Source: Secundilactobacillus odoratitofui DSM 19909 = JCM 15043
GTDB lineage: Bacteria > Bacillota > Bacilli > Lactobacillales > Lactobacillaceae
Reading direction: 5' to 3'
Length of the DNA: 64,000 nt
Assembly: GCF_001434895.1 (NCBI RefSeq)
Contig: NZ_AZEE01000027.1
Location: 1-64,000, forward strand
In this document: in pieces, positions 4,458 through 45,650 of the stretch
Position numbering within the stretch: the stretch's first letter is position 1
Layout of the letters: each line of letters starts with the position of its first letter
Program-made: the position numbers and the translations under genes
Notes under the pieces: model-generated
What the model was told of the DNA's origin: nothing
The model's database searches: none
What the model saw: only the letters and a program-made list of their open reading frames with translations

Positions 4458-7400
4458 TTGAAAAGGGAAAACTATCGGGTGCCGGTGTGGTTTGCTTACA
4501 CACTAGCCTTCATACTCATTATTTTACTAACATTTGGTGCCCTCCACACGATGGGCCGCTCAACTATTTGGAGCTTAGACGGGATTGCACAACACTACCC
4601 GATTTTAAAGGAATTCTACCAAATTTTACACGGCACAGCTCATCAGTCGCTTTTTAGCTGGTCATGGAACTTGGGTCTCGGTGCGGACCAAATGACGACG
4701 TTTGCGTACTACGTGGTTGGTGACCCATTCAGTTACCTCATTGCCCTCTTTCCGGCTAATCAACTTGAACTCGGTTATACGTTGCTCACACTGTTGCGCC
4801 TATACGTCGTTGGCCTATCCTTCATCGCCTTAGCCAAGCAATTTCACTTCCGACGCGGTGGCACTCTAATTGGTGCCTTGATCTACACCTTTAATGGGTT
4901 TACTTTTTACGTCAGTTACCACCACCCATTCTTTTTACTACCAATGATTTTATTTCCGCTACTTTGCTTAACGATTGACCGAATTTTACACGGCCATTCT
5001 TGGCTCTGGCTGGCGCTTGTAACTGCAATCGTTTTGATTTGTAACGTCTACTTCGCCTATTTATTAGCAATTGGCGCAGCGCTCTTTCTATTCATCCGCT
5101 ACTTTGATCTTAGAATCAAACACACTCAACTACCAAAGCTCTGGCAACTGTGTCTTCGATTGGGCTTGGCAATCGTCCTTGCACTATTGATTGCGGCCGT
5201 CATCTTGCTACCAACGGCACTTGCCATGGTCACCAGTTCACGGGTGGGTGGGGCCACCTTTGCCAACGGCTTGACGTGGTATCCTGAGATTTACTACCGG
5301 ACACTGCCCGATAATTTGTTGACTTCAAATGGTACGATCTACTACTGGGCCACGATTGCCACCAGTGGTATCGTCTTAATTGCCATGGTTTGGTCAATGC
5401 GACGTTTCCGTCAGTACTTGGCCATTAACGTCACACTCATCTTAATTGCAGTCGGCCTCCTGATACCAGCAGTATCGGCTACTTTGAACGTGATGAGTAC
5501 ACCAAGCAATCGCTGGTTATTAATGGCCCAGTTGGTATTTGGATTGTTAGCCGCAACGCTGATTGATCACTTAAACTTGTTTGATCAACGTGATTTTTGG
5601 TGGCTAACTGGTGTGACGATCATTTTTATCATCTTGATTTGGATTGCCAACGGGTTTATCTTCAAGTTCCGCGATATTCAAACGTTACTTTACGTGATCT
5701 TCTTCATGTTCGTTTGGCTGATGAGTTTAATATTACTGAATCCCCACCACGTTTTACAGTTTAAACTCGGTATGCTTGGCGTTGTCATGTTAAATACCAT
5801 CGCGATTGGCCTCAGTTTTTACAGTAGCAATTACAGTGGCGCACCCGCCAATGAATTACCCACCAAAACGGCGGAAAAATGGTCCGTTGATTACTTCGAC
5901 CGGGCAGACCAATACTTGAATCGTATTGATCACAGTTTTTATCGTACCGCCACCAGTAATAACTACTACTCAATGCTCACCGTGGGAAACGATATTCCAA
6001 TGCTACTCAACACCCACACCATCAGTTCGTATTATTCCGTTCAAAATGGTGACGTCAACACCTTTAATCAGCAGCTCGCAAATAGTCAAAACAGTATGAA
6101 TAACCCGACAAGTGACGTTGACACTAGAACCAGTCTATTGTCGTTACTGAACGTTAAGTATTTATTTGCCCGTCAGGATGACGTTGCTAACCATCAAGCT
6201 ATGCCATACGGCTTTACCCAACTTAAAACTGCCAAAGGTCACGCTGCTATTTTGAAAGATCGGCCCGTTTTCGGCGTTGGCAATGGTACCGGTACGGCTA
6301 TTTTGAAAAATAAGTATGCCCTACCTCTGGCCTATACGCAATCCTCACAAATCACGCCAAAGACTTTCAACTCATTGTCCGCTATTCAAAAACAGCAAAG
6401 TTTGTTGCAGGGTACTGCTGTCACGCACAAAATTGATGGCTTAAAACAAGCAACTTTAACTTCAACCACCCATCAAGCTGCCTACAGTGTTAAATTAACC
6501 AGTGAACCTGTCCTGACAATTCCAGATGCCATCAACTATCGTTTGACGCATAACATTAAGAAGTCAATGTCAGCTTCAGTCAAAACCAATCTGAAACCGT
6601 CAGAGGCAATGAAATATGCAGCTGCCACGGGACTAGAAACGCCATCGGCCACTGTCCAAAAACTACTTGCGGATAACCAAGCAACCATTGATAACAATCG
6701 TGAAGCAAATCAGCACGGTCTTAAGGCAATGACCAGTGATGTCTTGGGCACCCCTCAAACGTATCAATTGAAACTCAAACACCCATCACGATACCAAAAA
6801 ACTGAACTATATTTGGATTTATCTGGTATTACCACCACTTTTTCAACTACCTCTGATCGTCTAACCCAATTAAGTCAGCAATCCAAGCTTGCTGGCACGC
6901 CACTTAGTCGTGGTGAAAAAACCGCCAACTGGCGTTCAATTACGAATTCACCACTGTTCGATGCTTACACGCTCAATGTCAGCACTAGTGGTGGTAAAAC
7001 CATTTTTAACCAACTTGGCATCAACAATTTATCGGATTACGAACCAAAACACCACTTGCTCATTAACCTTGGTTATTCCGATAAAGTTCGCAAAACCATC
7101 AATTTATCATTTATCGGTGCTAATCAAATCTACTTTAAGCACGTCAAAGTTGTGGCGGTTCCCTATGGCAAGACTTATCGTCAACAGACCAAGCAACTGC
7201 AATCAACCGGATTAACCCATCAACACGTTACCAACAATACCGTTGAAGGGACCTCAACTGCCACCACCCGCCGAATCTTAACCACCAGCATTCCATACAG
7301 TAAAGGCTGGCAGCTTTCCGTTGATGGTAAAAAACAAGCGACCCAAGTCGTCAACAGCGGTTTTGTTGGCGCAATTTTGCCGAAGGGCCAACACCAGATC

Positions 7401-39710: not shown

Positions 39711-40361
39711 TTACTTTTCAACGCGCTGATTAACTACGAGACGAACTTCGTATCCCGCAGCTTCAAGTGCGCGTTTCACCGCGTCACCATCCGTTTTATC
39801 AACGTGCATTTCGATCATAATGGTCCCTAAATTGCGCGTGACAATCAGCGTCTGAATGTTAAACCCGTTGTCGGCCATAATCTTACTCATCTCGTAAATC
39901 ACACCGGTACGGTCATGTTCGACCATCACCTGAACAACCGTCGCGTCAACGAAATAATCGGTAATATCCAAAAAACCGTCTAAAATATCATTGGTGGTAA
40001 TGATGCCCACCACTTCAGTGCCATCCATAACCGGTAAAACGCCAATATGGTTGTGCCGCATCGTTGAAATGGCATCTTCCAGCTGTGCGCTATGTTCAAT
40101 CGTTTTGACGTCTTTTTCCATCACATCTTTGACCGTCATTTTATTGAAGAGATAATTCACTTCATAAATCGACAGACTAGTTGCCTTGGATGGTGACGCT
40201 TCTTGAATGATGCCCTCGGTCACAATGCCGACAAGTTTGGCACCATCAATGACCGGTAAACGATGAATCTGGTTATCCTTCATCACGTTAATGGCCACGT
40301 TAATTTTAGTATCCGGCGAAATGGTAATCACCTTTTTAGTCATGTAATCTGCAACGCTCAT
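39711..40361 (-). CDS. CBS-pair and ACT domain protein (AcuB-like)
   Basis: A 216-residue soluble protein. Two CBS repeats fill residues 5-135 (SVADYMTKKVITISPDTKI, NQIHRLPVID; VKDVMEKDVKTIE, NHIGVLPVMDG). An ACT domain occupies about 145-215 (VQVMVEHDRTGVIYEMSKIMADNGFNI). CBS pairs bind adenine nucleotides and ACT domains bind amino acids, so it could gate the neighbouring branched-chain amino-acid importer or sense its product; this is inference from operon position. It is the last gene of the liv operon and starts three bases after livF, whose 3' end supplies GGAGG. Confidence 0.9.
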   Translation of the reverse strand: MSVADYMTKKVITISPDTKINVAINVMKDNQIHRLPVIDGAKLVGIVTEGIIQEASPSKATSLSIYEVNYLFNKMTVKDVMEKDVKTIEHSAQLEDAISTMRHNHIGVLPVMDGTEVVGIITTNDILDGFLDITDYFVDATVVQVMVEHDRTGVIYEMSKIMADNGFNIQTLIVTRNLGTIMIEMHVDKTDGDAVKRALEAAGYEVRLVVNQRVEK

Positions 40362-40364
40362 CTT

Positions 40365-41075
40365 TTAGCCTCCTAGGTATGCTTTTTGAACATCTTGATT
40401 GGCTAGCAGTTCTGCTCCGGTGCCAGACATCTTGACTTCACCACTTGCCAGCACGTAGCCGCGGTCCGCAATTGCCAACGCTTTTTTGGCGTTTTGTTCA
40501 ATCAGAAGAACGGTCGTCCCCTGTTCTTTAATCGCTTCAACGATATCAAATATTTCATTGATGAAAATTGGTGCCAATCCCATTGACGGTTCATCCAGTA
40601 ACAACAACTTGGGTTTGGACATCAGTGCTCGACCCATAGCCAGCATTTGCTGTTCACCGCCTGAAAGAGTGGCTGCATCTTGATCGAGTCGTTCCTTTAA
40701 AACGGGAAACCGCTGATAGACCGCTTCAAAGCTGTCAGTCATCGATTGACGATTACTTTGCAAAAAAGCGCCCATTTGAAGATTTTCCTTTACGGACATA
40801 CCCGGGAAGATATGGCGTCCTTCAGGCACTTGTGAAATGCCAGCAGCCACGATTTTGGGCGCCTTTTGTTTTTGAATTGGCTGTCCTTCGTATGTAATCG
40901 TGCCACTTGCCGGTTTTAAGAGGCCGGAAATCGTTTTTAGGATTGTAGTTTTCCCCGCCCCATTGGCACCAATTAAAGATACGATCTCACCCTGATTGAT
41001 TTCAAAGCTGACACCTTTAACGGCGTTGATCACGCCGTAGTTGACTGCCAAATCCTTCACTTCTAACATCGCCAT
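40365..41075 (-). CDS. livF: Branched-chain amino-acid ABC transporter ATPase LivF
   Basis: One of two ATPases driving the Liv importer. The 236 residues include Walker A GANGAGKTT near residues 36-44, the LivF stretch VPEGRHIFPGMSVKENL, the signature LSGGEQQMLAMGRALM and Walker B LLLLDEPSMGLAP, which is characteristic of LivF rather than LivG. The switch histidine position is LLIEQN, i.e. Gln, normal for this subfamily. ATG follows GGAGG; livG ends two bases before it. Confidence 0.95.
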   Translation of the reverse strand: MAMLEVKDLAVNYGVINAVKGVSFEINQGEIVSLIGANGAGKTTILKTISGLLKPASGTITYEGQPIQKQKAPKIVAAGISQVPEGRHIFPGMSVKENLQMGAFLQSNRQSMTDSFEAVYQRFPVLKERLDQDAATLSGGEQQMLAMGRALMSKPKLLLLDEPSMGLAPIFINEIFDIVEAIKEQGTTVLLIEQNAKKALAIADRGYVLASGEVKMSGTGAELLANQDVQKAYLGG

Positions 41076-41077
41076 GA

Positions 41078-41857
41078 TTACGCCTCCTCGCCTAAGTATG
41101 CTTTAATAACCGCTGGATTTTGTTGAATTTGCGCCGGCGTACCTTCTGCTAACAGTGAGCCGTGATCCAACACGTAAATTCGTTCGGCCAGGTTCATGAC
41201 CAGCGACATGTCATGCTCAATCAACAAAACGGTAATGTGAAACTCACGCTGAATCTGACGAATCAGTCTTGTTAGATCAGCAGTTTCTTCAGGATTCATC
41301 CCGGCTGCCGGTTCGTCTAAAAATAGGACCTTGGGTTTCATTGCCAAACCACGGACAATCTCCAGTCGGCGCTGAATCCCGTATGGCAAATTTTTAGCCA
41401 ATTTATCCACGTCGTCTTGCAGATCAAAAATCTTAAGAAGTTCAATGGCTTCCTGGCGAATCTGGGCTTCCGTTCGATAAAACTTAGGTAGTCGAAAGAC
41501 TGATTGCACAAAACCTTCCTTATAATGAGCCGTCATGGCAATCAAGACGTTATCCAACACAGACAGTTCTTTAAAGAGTCGAATATTTTGAAAAGTCCGA
41601 GCCATCCCCAAATTAGCAATTTTATAGGCCTTTTTCCCATTAAGTGGAATCGTGCCATTTGGTCCCCGAAACGTGATTGAGCCTGAACTTGGTACGATCA
41701 CGCCAGTTAATAAGTTGAACAAAGTGGTTTTACCCGCCCCATTCGGCCCAATCAAGGCAACTAATTCATCGTCGTTAAGTTGCATGGTGACATCCGAAAC
41801 GGCCGTCAAGCCGCCGAAATTTTTAACTAAGTCTTCTACTTTAAGTAGTGTGCTCAT
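41078..41857 (-). CDS. livG: Branched-chain amino-acid ABC transporter ATPase LivG
   Basis: The second Liv ATPase, 259 residues. Walker A is GPNGAGKTTLFNLLTG near residues 35-50. The LivG-specific ARTFQNIRLFKELSVLDNVLIAM block follows, with RLEIVRGLAMKPKVLFLDEPAAGMNPEET for Walker B and LLIEHDMSLVMNL for the switch histidine. The last residues of livM overlap its ATG by four bases. It pairs with LivF on the inner face of the membrane. Confidence 0.95.
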   Translation of the reverse strand: MSTLLKVEDLVKNFGGLTAVSDVTMQLNDDELVALIGPNGAGKTTLFNLLTGVIVPSSGSITFRGPNGTIPLNGKKAYKIANLGMARTFQNIRLFKELSVLDNVLIAMTAHYKEGFVQSVFRLPKFYRTEAQIRQEAIELLKIFDLQDDVDKLAKNLPYGIQRRLEIVRGLAMKPKVLFLDEPAAGMNPEETADLTRLIRQIQREFHITVLLIEHDMSLVMNLAERIYVLDHGSLLAEGTPAQIQQNPAVIKAYLGEEA

Positions 41858-42816
41858 GACTTGACCTCCGTCTTCGTTTTTTTAGTAAACAGGCGTTTGA
41901 ATGAGAGTTCCCAAGTACCCATGATGCCAGATGGCTTGAAAATCATAATCAAAATCAAAACCACCGCGTAAATCACCATCCGCAATGCGCCAAAATTTTG
42001 AAGCGCTGTATCGACAATCCCCAATATAATAGCAGCGACAAAACTTCCAGTGACACTGCCAACACCACCAAGTACAACAATAATCAAAATGGCAATTGAT
42101 TCCATGATGTTAAAGTTACTTGGTGCAATGGTTTGCAAGTATGAGGCTTGCATCGAACCAGCAACGGCTGCAGTTGCAGCACCAAGCACAAAGGCAGCCA
42201 GTTTCCACTTGAAAACATTGATTCCCATTGACTCAGCAGCAATTTCGTCTTCCCGAACGGCCATTGCGGCACGACCACCACGACTGTGAATAAAGTTAAC
42301 GATGATAATCGTAGTGACACAGATCATAATATAAACCACTGGCCAAGTTGCGAATTGGGGGATGTTGAACATTCCGGAAGGTCCGTTCGTAATTTTCAAA
42401 TTATTGATCACAATCCGAATAATTTCTGCAGCCCCCATCGTTGCGATAGCGAGGTAGTCCCCGCGAAGACGCAGTGTCGGAATGCCGACAACTAGCGCAG
42501 CAACAATCGCAATCACGACCCCCACGATAATTGAGACGTAAAAGGCACCTGCAGTAGGCGTTTTGCTAATGATAATGGCGGTGGCATACGCACCAACTGC
42601 CATGAACCCAGCGTGGCCCAATGAGAACTGACCAGCAAAACCAATCACAAGGTTCAAGCCAACGGCCAAAATAATATTGATGCCGATCGTGACCAACATG
42701 TTTTCAAGAAACGAATCGATCACGCCGACTAAAATCAGTGTGTTCATCAGGTAAAAGCCAGCGACCATCAGAATGAGCCAGCAAATATTGTATTTCAAGT
42801 TTGCTTTCAAAATCAT
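41854..42816 (-). CDS. livM: Branched-chain amino-acid ABC permease LivM
   Basis: An integral membrane subunit, about 320 residues with eight to ten helices. Family features are NIILAVGLNLVIGFAGQFSLGHAGFMAVGAYATAI near residues 46-80 and the ATPase-coupling EDEIAAESMGINVFKWKLAAFVLG region near 205. GGVGSVTGSFVAAIILG follows in the last third. The ATG at 42816 is preferred over a GTG one codon earlier. It forms the channel with LivH. Confidence 0.94.
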   Translation of the reverse strand: MILKANLKYNICWLILMVAGFYLMNTLILVGVIDSFLENMLVTIGINIILAVGLNLVIGFAGQFSLGHAGFMAVGAYATAIIISKTPTAGAFYVSIIVGVVIAIVAALVVGIPTLRLRGDYLAIATMGAAEIIRIVINNLKITNGPSGMFNIPQFATWPVVYIMICVTTIIIVNFIHSRGGRAAMAVREDEIAAESMGINVFKWKLAAFVLGAATAAVAGSMQASYLQTIAPSNFNIMESIAILIIVVLGGVGSVTGSFVAAIILGIVDTALQNFGALRMVIYAVVLILIMIFKPSGIMGTWELSFKRLFTKKTKTEVKS

Positions 42817-42819
42817 CAC

Positions 42820-43698
42820 CTAGACCTTTTCTTTGACGTTCTTACCGAAGATTCCGGCTGGCAATACCAATAGAATAATAATCAACACGAGATAGACAGC
42901 CGCATCCTTGTACGCAGACAGGCCGACCGATTGTACTGCGGTTTCCAATAGACCAATCAAGAAGCCCCCGAGTGAAGCCCCTGGTACGGATCCGATACCA
43001 CCAACAACAGCAGCAACGAAGGCTTTGATACCGGGTGTCATGCCCATGAGTGGATCAATCGAGTTATAGTACAACCCAATCAAGACACCGGCTGCACCGG
43101 CCATTGATGAACCCAAGGCAAAGGTAAATGAAATGGTGCGGTTAATGTTGATGCCAACCAGTTCAGCTGCATCCGCATCAACAGACACGGCACGCATTGC
43201 CCGGCCCATCTTGGTTTTTTTGATGATCAGTTGCAGCAGGATCATCAAAAAACAAGCAGTAGCCAAAATCAAAATTTGAATGTTGGAAATTCGAACGCCG
43301 AAAATCGTGTAATTCACTTGTTTGATGACTTGGGGAAAGTTTCGTGTGTCGGCACCGTACAGATACGACATGATATTTTCCAAGAAGTATGAAACCCCAA
43401 TGGCGGTAATCAACGCCGTGATTCGTGGCGCGTGTCGAAGTGGTCGGTATGCTAAATACTCAATTACAACGCCAGCCACGGCGCAGACAAACATGGCGGA
43501 TACCAACGCGAAAATAAAGTTAAAATGCCAAAAGTTGATCGTGTAGTAACCCCAAAAGGCACCTAACATGTAGATATCACCATGCGCAAAGTTAATCAAT
43601 TTGATAATACCGTAGACCATGGTGTAGCCCAGTGCCAAAAGCGCGTAGATGCTTCCCAATGACAGGCCATTTATGAGTTGTTGCAAGAGTGTAGTCAA
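42820..43698 (-). CDS. livH: Branched-chain amino-acid ABC permease LivH
   Basis: The partner permease, 292 residues. The start LINGLSLGSIYALLALGYTMVYGIIKLINFAHGDIYMLGAF is the LivH hallmark. The coupling helix region VSVDADAAELVGININRTISFTFALGSS lies near 175, and AAVVGGIGSVPGASLGGFLIGLLET near 230. It follows livJ after 123 bp that hold a large intercistronic hairpin, and it starts the livHMGF-CBS run with no gaps of note. Confidence 0.95.
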   Translation of the reverse strand: MTTLLQQLINGLSLGSIYALLALGYTMVYGIIKLINFAHGDIYMLGAFWGYYTINFWHFNFIFALVSAMFVCAVAGVVIEYLAYRPLRHAPRITALITAIGVSYFLENIMSYLYGADTRNFPQVIKQVNYTIFGVRISNIQILILATACFLMILLQLIIKKTKMGRAMRAVSVDADAAELVGININRTISFTFALGSSMAGAAGVLIGLYYNSIDPLMGMTPGIKAFVAAVVGGIGSVPGASLGGFLIGLLETAVQSVGLSAYKDAAVYLVLIIILLVLPAGIFGKNVKEKV

Positions 43699-43821: not shown

Positions 43822-45018
43822 TTACTTGATTTGTGTTGAACCAACAACCTTACCGTTATTCAAGTGTTCAACAGCGATTGGCTTGTTAGCATCGTGCTTT
43901 GAGTCGATGGTGATCTTACCAGTAACGCCATCGAAGTTCTTAATTTTAGCCAAGCCGTCACGAATTTTAACTGAGTTAGCTGACTTTTCGTTTTCAATTG
44001 CTGTCTTGATCATGTAGGTTGAGTCGTAAGCCAAAGCTGAGAAGGTTGGTGCATCAGTGTGGTAACGTGCCTTATAAGCCTTCAGGAACTTAGCTGCGAC
44101 TGGGTTGCTCTTGGCAACTGTTTGCGAGAATGGTGTGGTGTAGTAGATGTTTGAAGCATTCTTAGCACCAGCGATTTGAACCAATTTAGCATCGGCCATC
44201 CCATCTGAACCAACGATTGGAACGTTTAGGCCCATTTGACGTGCTTGCTTGATGATCAAACCAATTTCTGAGTAATAACCTGGTGCGTAAATTGCATCGA
44301 TTTTCTTATTCTTAAATGACGTCAAGATGGCGTTGAAATCCTTGTCACCTGAAGCGAAGTACTGCGTATCAACAACCTTACCCGTGAACTGTTTCTTAAA
44401 TGCCTTAGCAAGGCCTGTCCCGTAATCAGTTGAGTTATCACCCAGAACTGCAACCCGCTTGGCCTTCAAGTTATTGGTCATAAACTTAGCAGCGGTGCCA
44501 CCTTGGAAGTTGTTTTGGTAACATGCACGGAAGACGTATGGTTGGGCCTTGCCGTTCTTTTGCAACGTGAAGTTTGGATCAGTCGCCGATGGACTCAGTG
44601 CAGCAACCTTTGCCTTGGTTTCGTTAGGAATGGCTGCGGTCCCAGCGTTGGTTGTGGCCGTCCCAATGATGGCGTTGACCTTATCGTTGTTTGACAACTG
44701 GGCTGCAATTGAAGCACTGGTACTCGTTGAAGTCTTGTTATCTTTGATGATCAACTTGATCTTCTTCTTTTTACCGTTAACGTTGACGCCACCCTTATTG
44801 TTAATTTCTTTGGTGGCCATCTCGATACCTTGTTTCATTTGGTTCCCATAACCACCAGCGGCACCGGAGAGTTCCAAGTTAACCCCGATCTTAACGGTGC
44901 TACCTGTTTGATCATTGCCTTGACTCGTTGTCTTGGCTGTTGAACACCCTGCAAAAATCGCTGCAGACATCATAATTGCTGCAATCCCAGTAACTTTCTT
45001 AATCATGCTTTTTTTCAT
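43822..45018 (-). CDS. livJ: Branched-chain amino-acid binding lipoprotein LivJ
   Basis: The extracytoplasmic substrate receptor, 398 residues. The signal peptide (MKKSMIKKVTGIAAIMMSAA) ends in the lipobox IFAGC with lipidated Cys25. The mature part has the type I periplasmic-binding fold (Peripla_BP_6), with KIGVNLELSGAAGGYGNQMKQGIEMA, IIGTATTNAGTAAIP, LSPSATDPNF and APTFSALAYDSTYMI. ATG follows GGGAG. It is the first structural gene, about 77 bp after an attenuator-type leader. Specificity for Leu/Ile/Val is inferred from the operon and from the leader peptide codons. Confidence 0.93.
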   Translation of the reverse strand: MKKSMIKKVTGIAAIMMSAAIFAGCSTAKTTSQGNDQTGSTVKIGVNLELSGAAGGYGNQMKQGIEMATKEINNKGGVNVNGKKKKIKLIIKDNKTSTSTSASIAAQLSNNDKVNAIIGTATTNAGTAAIPNETKAKVAALSPSATDPNFTLQKNGKAQPYVFRACYQNNFQGGTAAKFMTNNLKAKRVAVLGDNSTDYGTGLAKAFKKQFTGKVVDTQYFASGDKDFNAILTSFKNKKIDAIYAPGYYSEIGLIIKQARQMGLNVPIVGSDGMADAKLVQIAGAKNASNIYYTTPFSQTVAKSNPVAAKFLKAYKARYHTDAPTFSALAYDSTYMIKTAIENEKSANSVKIRDGLAKIKNFDGVTGKITIDSKHDANKPIAVEHLNNGKVVGSTQIK

Positions 45019-45094
45019 AAGTTTCTCCCACTTTCTGATCGTTTGTATGTAGTCTTGGCTGTCCTGGTCTTCTTCCCTCCCTCACCAGGGCAAT

Positions 45095-45124
45095 AAAAAA
45101 ACCTCATCCAATAATGAATGAGGT
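45095..45124 (-). terminator. Attenuator terminator in the liv leader
   Basis: On the minus strand ACCTCAT (45118-45124) pairs with ATGAGGT (45101-45107), followed by seven T. It stands between the leader peptide and livJ. Its 5' arm (45113-45123) can instead pair with 45149-45158. Confidence 0.88.
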
Positions 45125-45145
45125 CTAAAGTCAGATTTATCATCA

Positions 45146-45177
45146 AGCCCTCATCATTAAAAACATAAATAAGGGCT
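45146..45177 (-). promoter_or_regulatory. Anti-antiterminator hairpin in the liv leader
   Basis: AGCCCTTAT (45169-45177) pairs with ATGAGGGCT (45146-45154) on the minus strand. Its 3' arm AATGATGAGG (45149-45158) can alternatively pair with CCTCATTCATT (45113-45123) of the terminator with one bulged base. The two states exclude each other. Confidence 0.65.
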
Positions 45178-45204
45178 CAACTTGTTTAATTTGTAGTATA
45201 ACTA

Positions 45205-45297
45205 CTAAATTAAAGTTGCGTCCTTGGTTTTTAATAATAAGACTAAATTCTGACGAGCAGAGGTTACGTTAAATTGTTGAGTTGTTGGTGTTTTCAT
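45205..45297 (-). CDS. Leader peptide of the liv operon
   Basis: A 30-codon open frame with ATG seven bases after AAGGAGG (45305-45311) and stop TAG at 45205-45207. The peptide contains NLVLLLK at residues 17-23, with four TTA leucine codons and one GTC valine codon in a row, and ends in LI. Eight of 30 residues are branched-chain. A hairpin AATTTAGTAG/CTACAAATT (45188-45211) overlaps its stop codon. The layout of promoter, leader frame, alternative hairpins, terminator and livJ is that of ribosome-mediated attenuation. No T-box sequence is present. The function is inferred. Confidence 0.82.
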   Translation of the reverse strand: MKTPTTQQFNVTSARQNLVLLLKTKDATLI

Positions 45298-45345
45298 GGT
45301 GTAACCTCCTTGTCAGAATTTATTTTTTCTTGATTGAATGATGTT

Positions 45346-45374
45346 AGTATAATCGTAATCTCATTTAGCGTCAA
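45346..45374 (-). promoter_or_regulatory. Promoter of the liv operon
   Basis: On the minus strand TTGACG (45369-45374) is followed after 17 bases by TATACT (45346-45351). Transcription should begin near 45339, giving a leader of about 320 bases before livJ. Confidence 0.85.
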
Positions 45375-45473
45375 CAGTTTTTTAATATTTTTTTCATGTC
45401 CGTAAAAACAACCTGACGTGTAACCTTCAGTTTTTCGGAGTCCCTTTTGGCATATTACACCAGTCCGCCTCTG

Positions 45474-45650
45474 GCAGACAGCGAGACCGGTTGGTAGCTG
45501 TGGGACCAGTTTCAGCCACGCAAAAAACGCGTGTCTTCCGCTTCGATTCTGAGCCTCGTATAACCCACGAGTCTCAGAATCGTCCAGTCCCACTAAGCGC
45601 TTCGCGCAAAGTGGGACTTATCACTGCTACCAACCGGTCTCGCTGACTGC
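45474..45650. repeat. Cloverleaf-like structured repeat, copy C
   Basis: A 25-bp inverted repeat with one mismatch (45474-45498 and 45626-45650) encloses three hairpins. These are CACGC/GCGTG (45517-45533), GATTCTGAGcCTCGT/ACGAGtCTCAGAATC (45545-45581) and GTCCCACT..AGTGGGAC (45587-45616). The second hairpin keeps the C opposite T mismatch seen in copies A and B at 13.3 and 13.7 kb. A 99-codon frame on the minus strand across it has no ribosome site and is not a gene. Confidence 0.72.

Follow-up and report, generated by a model that had tools for sequence, protein, structure and literature searches.

Upstream of livJ in Secundilactobacillus odoratitofui DSM 19909 lies a short leader that raises the question of how a bacterium might match its uptake of branched-chain amino acids (BCAAs) to their supply. 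A preliminary description of the window (the whole stretch of DNA analysed, 64,000 nucleotides of contig NZ_AZEE01000027.1) had proposed a leader-peptide attenuator through which expression of a BCAA importer follows the charging of Leu and Val tRNAs. Here we ask whether the leader is real, which amino acid it would sense, and how its RNA could switch. The locus is very probably a ribosome-mediated transcription attenuator through which charged leucine tRNA governs the importer. New relative to the preliminary description are a three-way contest for one RNA segment (C3'), a P5:P3 helix, a sensor for Leu and not Val, and the wide recurrence of the architecture.

The leader and its genomic setting

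The features of the locus are as follows.

45346..45374, minus strand: promoter-like site TTGACG-17-TATACT, matching 10/12 consensus positions
45305..45310, minus strand: ribosome binding site AGGAGG, 7 nt ahead of the leader ATG
45205..45297, minus strand: leader peptide ORF of 30 codons, MKTPTTQQFNVTSARQNLVLLLKTKDATLI, conserved in 41/46 readable livJ upstream regions
45227..45243, minus strand: segment A, the Leu-codon run, which can pair with C3' (protector helix)
45213..45225, minus strand: segment P5 (AAGGACGCAACTT), beginning 6 nt past the last Leu codon of the triplet; partner P3
45171..45183, minus strand: segment P3 (AAGTTGAGCCCTT), partner of P5 and overlapping the 5' arm of hairpin C
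45168..45180, minus strand: segment C5', the 5' arm of hairpin C
45143..45164, minus strand: segment C3', with the alternative partners A (45164-45147), C5' (45158-45143) and D5' (45159-45149)
45110..45124, minus strand: segment D5', the terminator 5' arm and loop side, of which 45123-45112 is the antiterminator partner of C3'
45095..45109, minus strand: segment D3' and T-run, the 3' arm and tail of the intrinsic terminator
43822..45018, minus strand: livJ, substrate-binding protein of a BCAA-type ABC importer (Pfam PF13458, E 1.8e-56)
39711..43698, minus strand: livH, livM, livG, livF and a CBS/ACT-type protein (names read from translations), co-directional and the putative rest of the livJ operon

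The near-consensus promoter of the preliminary description is present, as is, at the positions it had given, the 30-codon frame with its strong ribosome site and the run TTA GTC TTA TTA TTA (codons 18-22, at 45246-45232). The hairpin over the stop codon was likewise recovered and reaches further than described; the second hairpin, placed earlier at 45146-45177, is refined to 45180-45143, and the T-tailed terminator before livJ lies on the minus strand between leader and operon, with a stem at 45124-45101 and a T-run reaching 45095. By a simple scan, promoter-like sites are not rare (3 seen versus 2.4 expected), which leaves this site alone within chance, and the terminator hairpin alone is not beyond chance because 1 was seen versus 1.2 expected. 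The leader as a whole does fold beyond chance: positions 45090-45339 reach -71.9 kcal/mol versus -38.7 ± 4.3 kcal/mol for shuffles (z -7.64), and 45090-45225 gives z -6.01, with 0/200 shuffles as good in either case. Conservation is the decisive check.

Directly upstream of the promoter lies a further strongly folding stretch (45425-45610; minus strand, -77.7 kcal/mol, z -5.25). Part of it is repeated at 71-86% identity in at least 39 other places of the genome (40 of 96 candidates scored), and a 29-base inverted piece adjoins the repeated part; because of these copies and the adjoining inverted piece, the stretch looks like a dispersed palindromic repeat. Elsewhere in the window, the only T-box match (RF00230; 1741-1950, minus strand, 93.9 bits) stands ahead of an ORF (435-1694) whose translation reads as a tyrosyl-tRNA synthetase.

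The top NCBIfam match of livJ is a LIV-type binding protein at 173.5 bits, under the cut-off of 477. In the window's genome, PF00682 (LeuA, HMGL-like) is without a match and PF07991 (IlvC, KARI) has two matches of ~21 bits, barely at the cut-off of 20.6; the host therefore probably cannot make leucine and relies on import.

Conservation of the leader and of four helices

A LivJ protein scan of genome contigs gave 47 loci, of which 46 were readable; L016, with 36 bases upstream, was left out. A short ORF preceded by a Shine-Dalgarno (SD) sequence and containing a Leu triplet was found in 41 of the 46, ending ~150-280 nt before the livJ match. According to the preliminary description, its reading would fall if homologous leaders kept the hairpins and lost the frame or the Leu/Val codons; these 41 keep frame, Leu triplet and hairpins. 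The element is also present in L031, a record labelled L. plantarum. By motif search the leader is absent from L044-L048, where LivJ is 54-56% identical. Upstream of livJ in one of these, L047, search model R3 (below) gives a 32-bit match (4758-4888) with a leader ending NVIARLQIIG; the record is labelled Faecalicatena absiana (Clostridia), and transfer, mislabelling or wider spread may each account for it.

The 41 homologous leaders and the window's own were aligned (alignment A1, 42 leaders). All 42 carry the LLL triplet, which the search required in the 41. The 12 rows of the Secundilactobacillus group have Val ahead of the triplet, and the remaining 30 have Ala (28) or Thr (2); valine is therefore not a conserved sensor, and of the Leu/Val sensing proposed earlier only the Leu part stands. 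The RNA motif AGGAC begins 6-7 nt past the first Leu triplet in 42/42 leaders (L034, L035 and L037, with four Leu, being counted from the first three, and L017 having AGGGAC). Lactobacillus keeps AGGAC in a shifted frame, where KD becomes RT (LLLERRT), and the Lactobacillaceae leaders observed before leuA and leuB stop directly after LLL, so that P5 lies outside the ORF at about the same spacing. Because the distance to the Leu run is kept despite another frame or a position outside the ORF, P5 is RNA-structural. Many of the genera conserve the peptide well around QNLxLLLKxKDxT, in its C-terminal region; no such conservation is seen in the N-terminal part.

C3' is complementary to A, C5' and D5', and P5 to P3. 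As judged from the aligned sequences, A:C3', C5':C3' and C3':D5' exclude one another, and four helices are conserved. The exclusive pairing of 45149-45158 with 45113-45123 noted in the preliminary description thus exists, but the two folds proposed there fall short of a switch with two more conserved helices. Duplex energies of own versus cross-genus pairings were compared with 20,000 permutations, using one livJ element from each of 13 genera and taking genera as independent, ignoring relatedness. Own pairing was stronger for A:C3' (-17.0 versus -12.4 kcal/mol), C5':C3' (-17.1 versus -13.0), C3':D5' (-16.0 versus -12.4) and P5:P3 (-12.7 versus -8.0), each at p = 5e-5, the permutation floor. 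Again ignoring relatedness, the same p was obtained for each helix with one element from each of 34 genera in all, for 26 ilv, peptide and other elements compared own versus cross-element save A:C3' (2e-4), and for 16 livJ representatives save C5':C3' (0.007); 50 mixed representatives gave p 1e-4 for each helix and 17 leu-type elements p 1e-4 to 0.0055. Control pairings were null for A:D5 (p 0.46 in livJ, 0.93 in all genera) and A:P3 (0.93 and 0.98). The control P5:D5 was not clean (0.007 and 0.019, and 0.012 in a separate livJ set).

Within the 42 leaders, cells were paired in 87.0% for P5:P3 (at most 47.0% when slid), 86.1% for A:C3' (at most 59.2%) and 93.5% for C3':D5' (at most 50.3%). For these three helices, none of 500 shuffles reached the covariation score or the count of cells with changes on both sides; counted by pair, both-sided changes were not above shuffles (P5:P3 5 versus 5.1, A:C3' 7 versus 6.3, C3':D5' 3 versus 2.2), nor was the number of pair types for P5:P3 and A:C3'. 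In a more diverse alignment (A2), 10 pairs of helices C and D together changed on both sides versus 5.8 in shuffles, and 97.7% of cells in terminator helix D were paired; the covariation of both stems called for earlier was thus found, with matched changes in each. A2 was used to build R2 and kept out of P5 counts because P5 is misaligned by one base in some leuA rows. Pair types also exceeded shuffles on A2 (C and D) and on 70 elements aligned to the model (A4); in A4, 30/35 pairs changed on both sides versus a shuffled mean of 20.2, counts that lean towards the structure to which this alignment was fitted.

Relatives across Bacilli and their sensor codons

The comparison was widened with search models R1, R2 and R3, all of which have the window in their training sets; at the thresholds used, each finds one element in the window's genome. 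R1, a sequence-only model, matched 119/397 Lactobacillaceae genomes at E 0.01. From the matches listed, 80 places (strong, weak and repeated) were chosen, of which 61 were judged real and 19 chance; the latter, all among the 40 weak places, were terminator-only matches rejected by eye. R2 matched 131/395 Lactobacillales genomes at E 0.001 in 48/80 genera, mostly unchecked; 20/20 places inspected, at E 1e-6 or better save L245 (3.5e-6), looked real. R3 matched 32/398 Bacilli genomes at 1e-5 in 9/146 genera, and 12/12 inspected places looked real; two of its genera lie outside Lactobacillales, g108 (24 genomes) and g171 (one). Judgement by eye was unblinded and considered the leader ORF, P5/P3, C3' and the terminator. 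No ilvD elements went into building R2, which nevertheless finds them (E down to 5.8e-11); likewise, R3 detects the ilvD elements of g108, a genus left out of its construction, at 2.4e-14. The window's element has the architecture of R1-R3, namely P5:P3, C5':C3', C3':D5', the terminator and the shared motifs.

A total of 135 elements was collected, with at least two loci reached twice (L036/L144 and L040/L145). At L120, L147, L229, L246 and L261 the script found no SD-preceded leader ORF, and at L119 it found a wrong one. One candidate, L117, was dropped for having no T-run.

No family in Rfam 15, leu_leader and T-box included, exceeds its gathering score at the locus or at 13 related loci, apart from an sRNA match at L125; the best of the matches below threshold is PyrR (31.7 bits versus 54). 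This match (L125:125-230; Rfam Ref68, Lacto-3 RNA) lies upstream of a livJ attenuator. We appear to be dealing with an RNA family that Rfam 15 does not recognise and that recurs in many Lactobacillales genera before several BCAA-related kinds of gene.

The enzyme genes behind the elements are leuA, leuB, ilvD, ilvB, ilvE and an iron-containing dehydrogenase; transport and other targets are livJ, a peptide-binding protein, a peptide permease, CstA, SBP_bac_3, a sodium symporter type and an MFS protein. One or two representatives of each were named by family search and the rest from their first residues. The earlier proposal was of an attenuator acting on transport; the same architecture also precedes leu, ilv and peptide-uptake genes. 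One genome (G098) has two strong copies, L129 and L130, before a livJ-type gene and a peptide-binding protein gene.

Leu/Ile/Val codons were counted in the seven codons before P5 for 131 elements with a leader call. The means were 4.00/0/0 for leuA (24 elements), 3.57/0/0.57 for leuB (7), 3.81/0.24/0.34 for livJ (67), 2.38/2.19/1.06 for ilvD (16) and 0/4.0/1.0 for ilvE (2); they include rows with an ORF whose automatically picked frame is wrong or doubtful (at least L126, L127, L162 and L229), whereas no ORF was picked for L138 and L140 and no P5/P3 for L231 and L247. Sensor codons thus mostly track the target pathway. Exceptions are L230 and L235, which carry Ile and not Leu runs before livJ-type genes, and L134, which has LVAVLII.

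Several targets are unusual in themselves. An attenuator-like leader precedes the iron-containing dehydrogenase gene, an odd target for a leucine switch, in L126-L128 (L128 ..YQALLMLSIKDPIIIQY), and in L116 (G237) an MFS transporter gene, instead of leuA, stands behind a leuA-type leader whose last residues are LLALLL. The attenuated leuA product at L109:2006-3178 (391 aa) matches about the first 380 positions of LeuA models of ~514 residues, and family search did not find the C-terminal regulatory domain in it; by length alone, other leuA ORFs behind the element are mostly 384-392 aa, L245 having 518. In L114 and L117 the leuA-like ORF behind the element ends after 115 and 112 residues, and leuA may therefore be broken in these genomes.

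A proposed switch, its rivals and known attenuators

We propose the following sequence of events. With no ribosome on the leader, A would hold C3' and P5 would hold P3, so that the terminator forms and the operon is off. When leucine is plentiful, the ribosome would run to the stop codon and open P5:P3; the freed C5' would take C3', and the terminator would again form. When leucine is scarce, the ribosome would stall at the Leu triplet, covering A with its leading edge just short of P5. During the stall P5:P3 could form and hide C5', leaving C3' to take the terminator 5' arm, and livJ would be transcribed. The geometry predicts that the switch flips while the ribosome crosses the Leu triplet.

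Ribosome positions were simulated by partition-function folds of RNA ending before the terminator 3' arm, with -14 to +15 of the P site masked. Of the 42 leaders, the number with at least 5 expected antiterminator pairs fell from 33 for a ribosome at the first Leu of the triplet to 26 and 18 at the second and third; it was 11 at the stop codon and likewise 11 when no ribosome was placed. The 42 livJ leaders showed the same direction when the leading edge was set at +12 or +18. In the window's own element the switch is weak in simulation, and only its direction fits: 3.1 antiterminator pairs at the first Leu, where C5':C3' still has 8.2, versus 0.0 without a ribosome or at the stop. A wider counting region gave 8.8 pairs at the first Leu; we rely on the narrower count. 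The ribosome was also slid over 58 elements (20 livJ, 13 leu, 15 ilv and 10 peptide/other; at most 2 per genus and gene), and the antiterminator drops while the P site crosses the Leu triplet (-18 to -12 relative to P5). In the ilv and peptide/other sets, RNA free of ribosomes already has 6.2 and 7.1 pairs, versus 8-9 when stalled, and in the leu and peptide/other sets the antiterminator rises again, up to 6.7, with the ribosome beyond P5.

Attenuation could be real and A:C3' nevertheless have no role, being a by-product of sequence shared by A, C5' and D5'; we consider this unlikely. These segments do resemble each other, and therefore, if one is complementary to C3', the others tend to be so as well. 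The helix is weaker in ilv, peptide and other elements (-8.9 versus -7.1 kcal/mol, p 2e-4), its both-sided changes per pair are no commoner than in shuffles of the 42 leaders, and the native Leu codons do not pair best among the synonymous choices (a median of 16% of synonymous Leu codings pair better with C3', which is only modest support for A:C3'). Against a by-product stand the advantage of own over cross-genus pairing in livJ (p = 5e-5) and the variation of Leu codons among TTA, CTA and TTG with matching changes in C3'. The helix would moreover give an untranslated off state, as in start-codon and ribosome-binding-site mutants of Listeria Rli60 under low BCAA in the part of PMC5864092 covered.

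Two other explanations dispense with leucine-dependent translation. Ribosome arrest might be caused by the sequence of the leader peptide itself, or by the peptide together with an antibiotic, the switch answering that event and not leucine. The conserved C-terminal region favours such arrest, but the N-terminal part is not conserved, the residues after LLL shift with the frame or give way to a stop (leuA) while the AGGAC RNA stays, and the choice among Leu, Ile and Val codons changes with the target pathway; together these make arrest very improbable. We give almost no credence to a T-box or other tRNA- or metabolite-binding leader: T-boxes are common in the host genome (42 matches at E 0.001, 9 above cut-off), but at the locus and the 13 related loci no Rfam family reaches its cut-off, save the L125 sRNA match, and the conserved leader ORF would be left unexplained. 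Attenuation by a ribosome that reads Leu codons thus stays the preferred reading, and its logic appears to govern nutrient import in a bacterium that is probably unable to make leucine.

Textbook accounts mostly present ribosome-mediated attenuation as a device of enteric bacteria for biosynthesis, and the multi-hairpin layout of his-type attenuators resembles the P5:P3 helix that frees C3'. The present element shares with enteric trp/his/leu-type attenuators the sensor codons in the first segment, the terminator and the antiterminator (PMC6123439, in the parts covered). It differs in having no Rfam match, a C3' with three rival partners and Bacilli hosts, and in standing also before transporters. 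In the portion of a cis-RNA regulon study used here, amino acid attenuators, as represented by the four motifs that Rfam then contained, mostly control biosynthetic enzymes, and their origin may be in gamma-proteobacteria (PMC3766115). The review PMC6123439 lists BCAA attenuators for biosynthesis and, in the parts covered, names none before a transporter; among the open-licence papers listed, none shows by title or start of abstract such an attenuator in lactobacilli or before an importer, which is weak evidence of absence, subscription journals being outside the scope of that search.

Closer counterparts occur in Bacilli. The Lactococcus lactis leu/ilv leader, as named in the covered parts of PMC5794164 and PMC6123439, is alike in its predicted BCAA-rich leader peptide and terminator, a likeness by description and not by RNA, and different in serving a biosynthetic operon. 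Rli60 of L. monocytogenes is a ribosome-mediated attenuator before ilvD, and mutations that keep its leader from being translated reduce ilvD transcription when BCAAs are low and not in another medium, as the untranslated off state predicts; it differs in controlling biosynthesis and in its 13-residue peptide (PMC5864092, same part).

The ilvD (ilv-leu) system of S. aureus shows leucine-dependent attenuation with reporter and mutant support, and is alike in its leader peptide with BCAA codons and its terminator; it controls biosynthesis, versus an importer here (PMC5794164, in the part covered). In R3, the g108 elements sit before ilvD-type genes with leaders such as MTNKYSFPNQQLNVIILLLRPGLEL; from peptide and target we infer that g108 is Staphylococcus, and one R3 genus outside the order fits this. 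That portion of PMC5794164 pairs 5'-GAAUGG-3' with the poly-U tail, and the same motif lies inside C3' (TTGAATGGGACTT) of the g108 ilvD elements, where pairing of C3' with the terminator 5' arm also forms and is supported by the ilv-type set. The S. aureus ilv attenuator may thus use an antiterminator other than the one described. The chances seem to us about even that a single ancestral attenuator RNA, its switch (P5:P3, C3' and terminator) fixed and its sensor codons exchangeable, spread over Bacilli to importers, leu/ilv enzymes and peptide transporters, forming a translation-sensing BCAA regulon beside the T-boxes that would include the S. aureus ilv attenuator, with C3' and the terminator 5' arm as its antiterminator.
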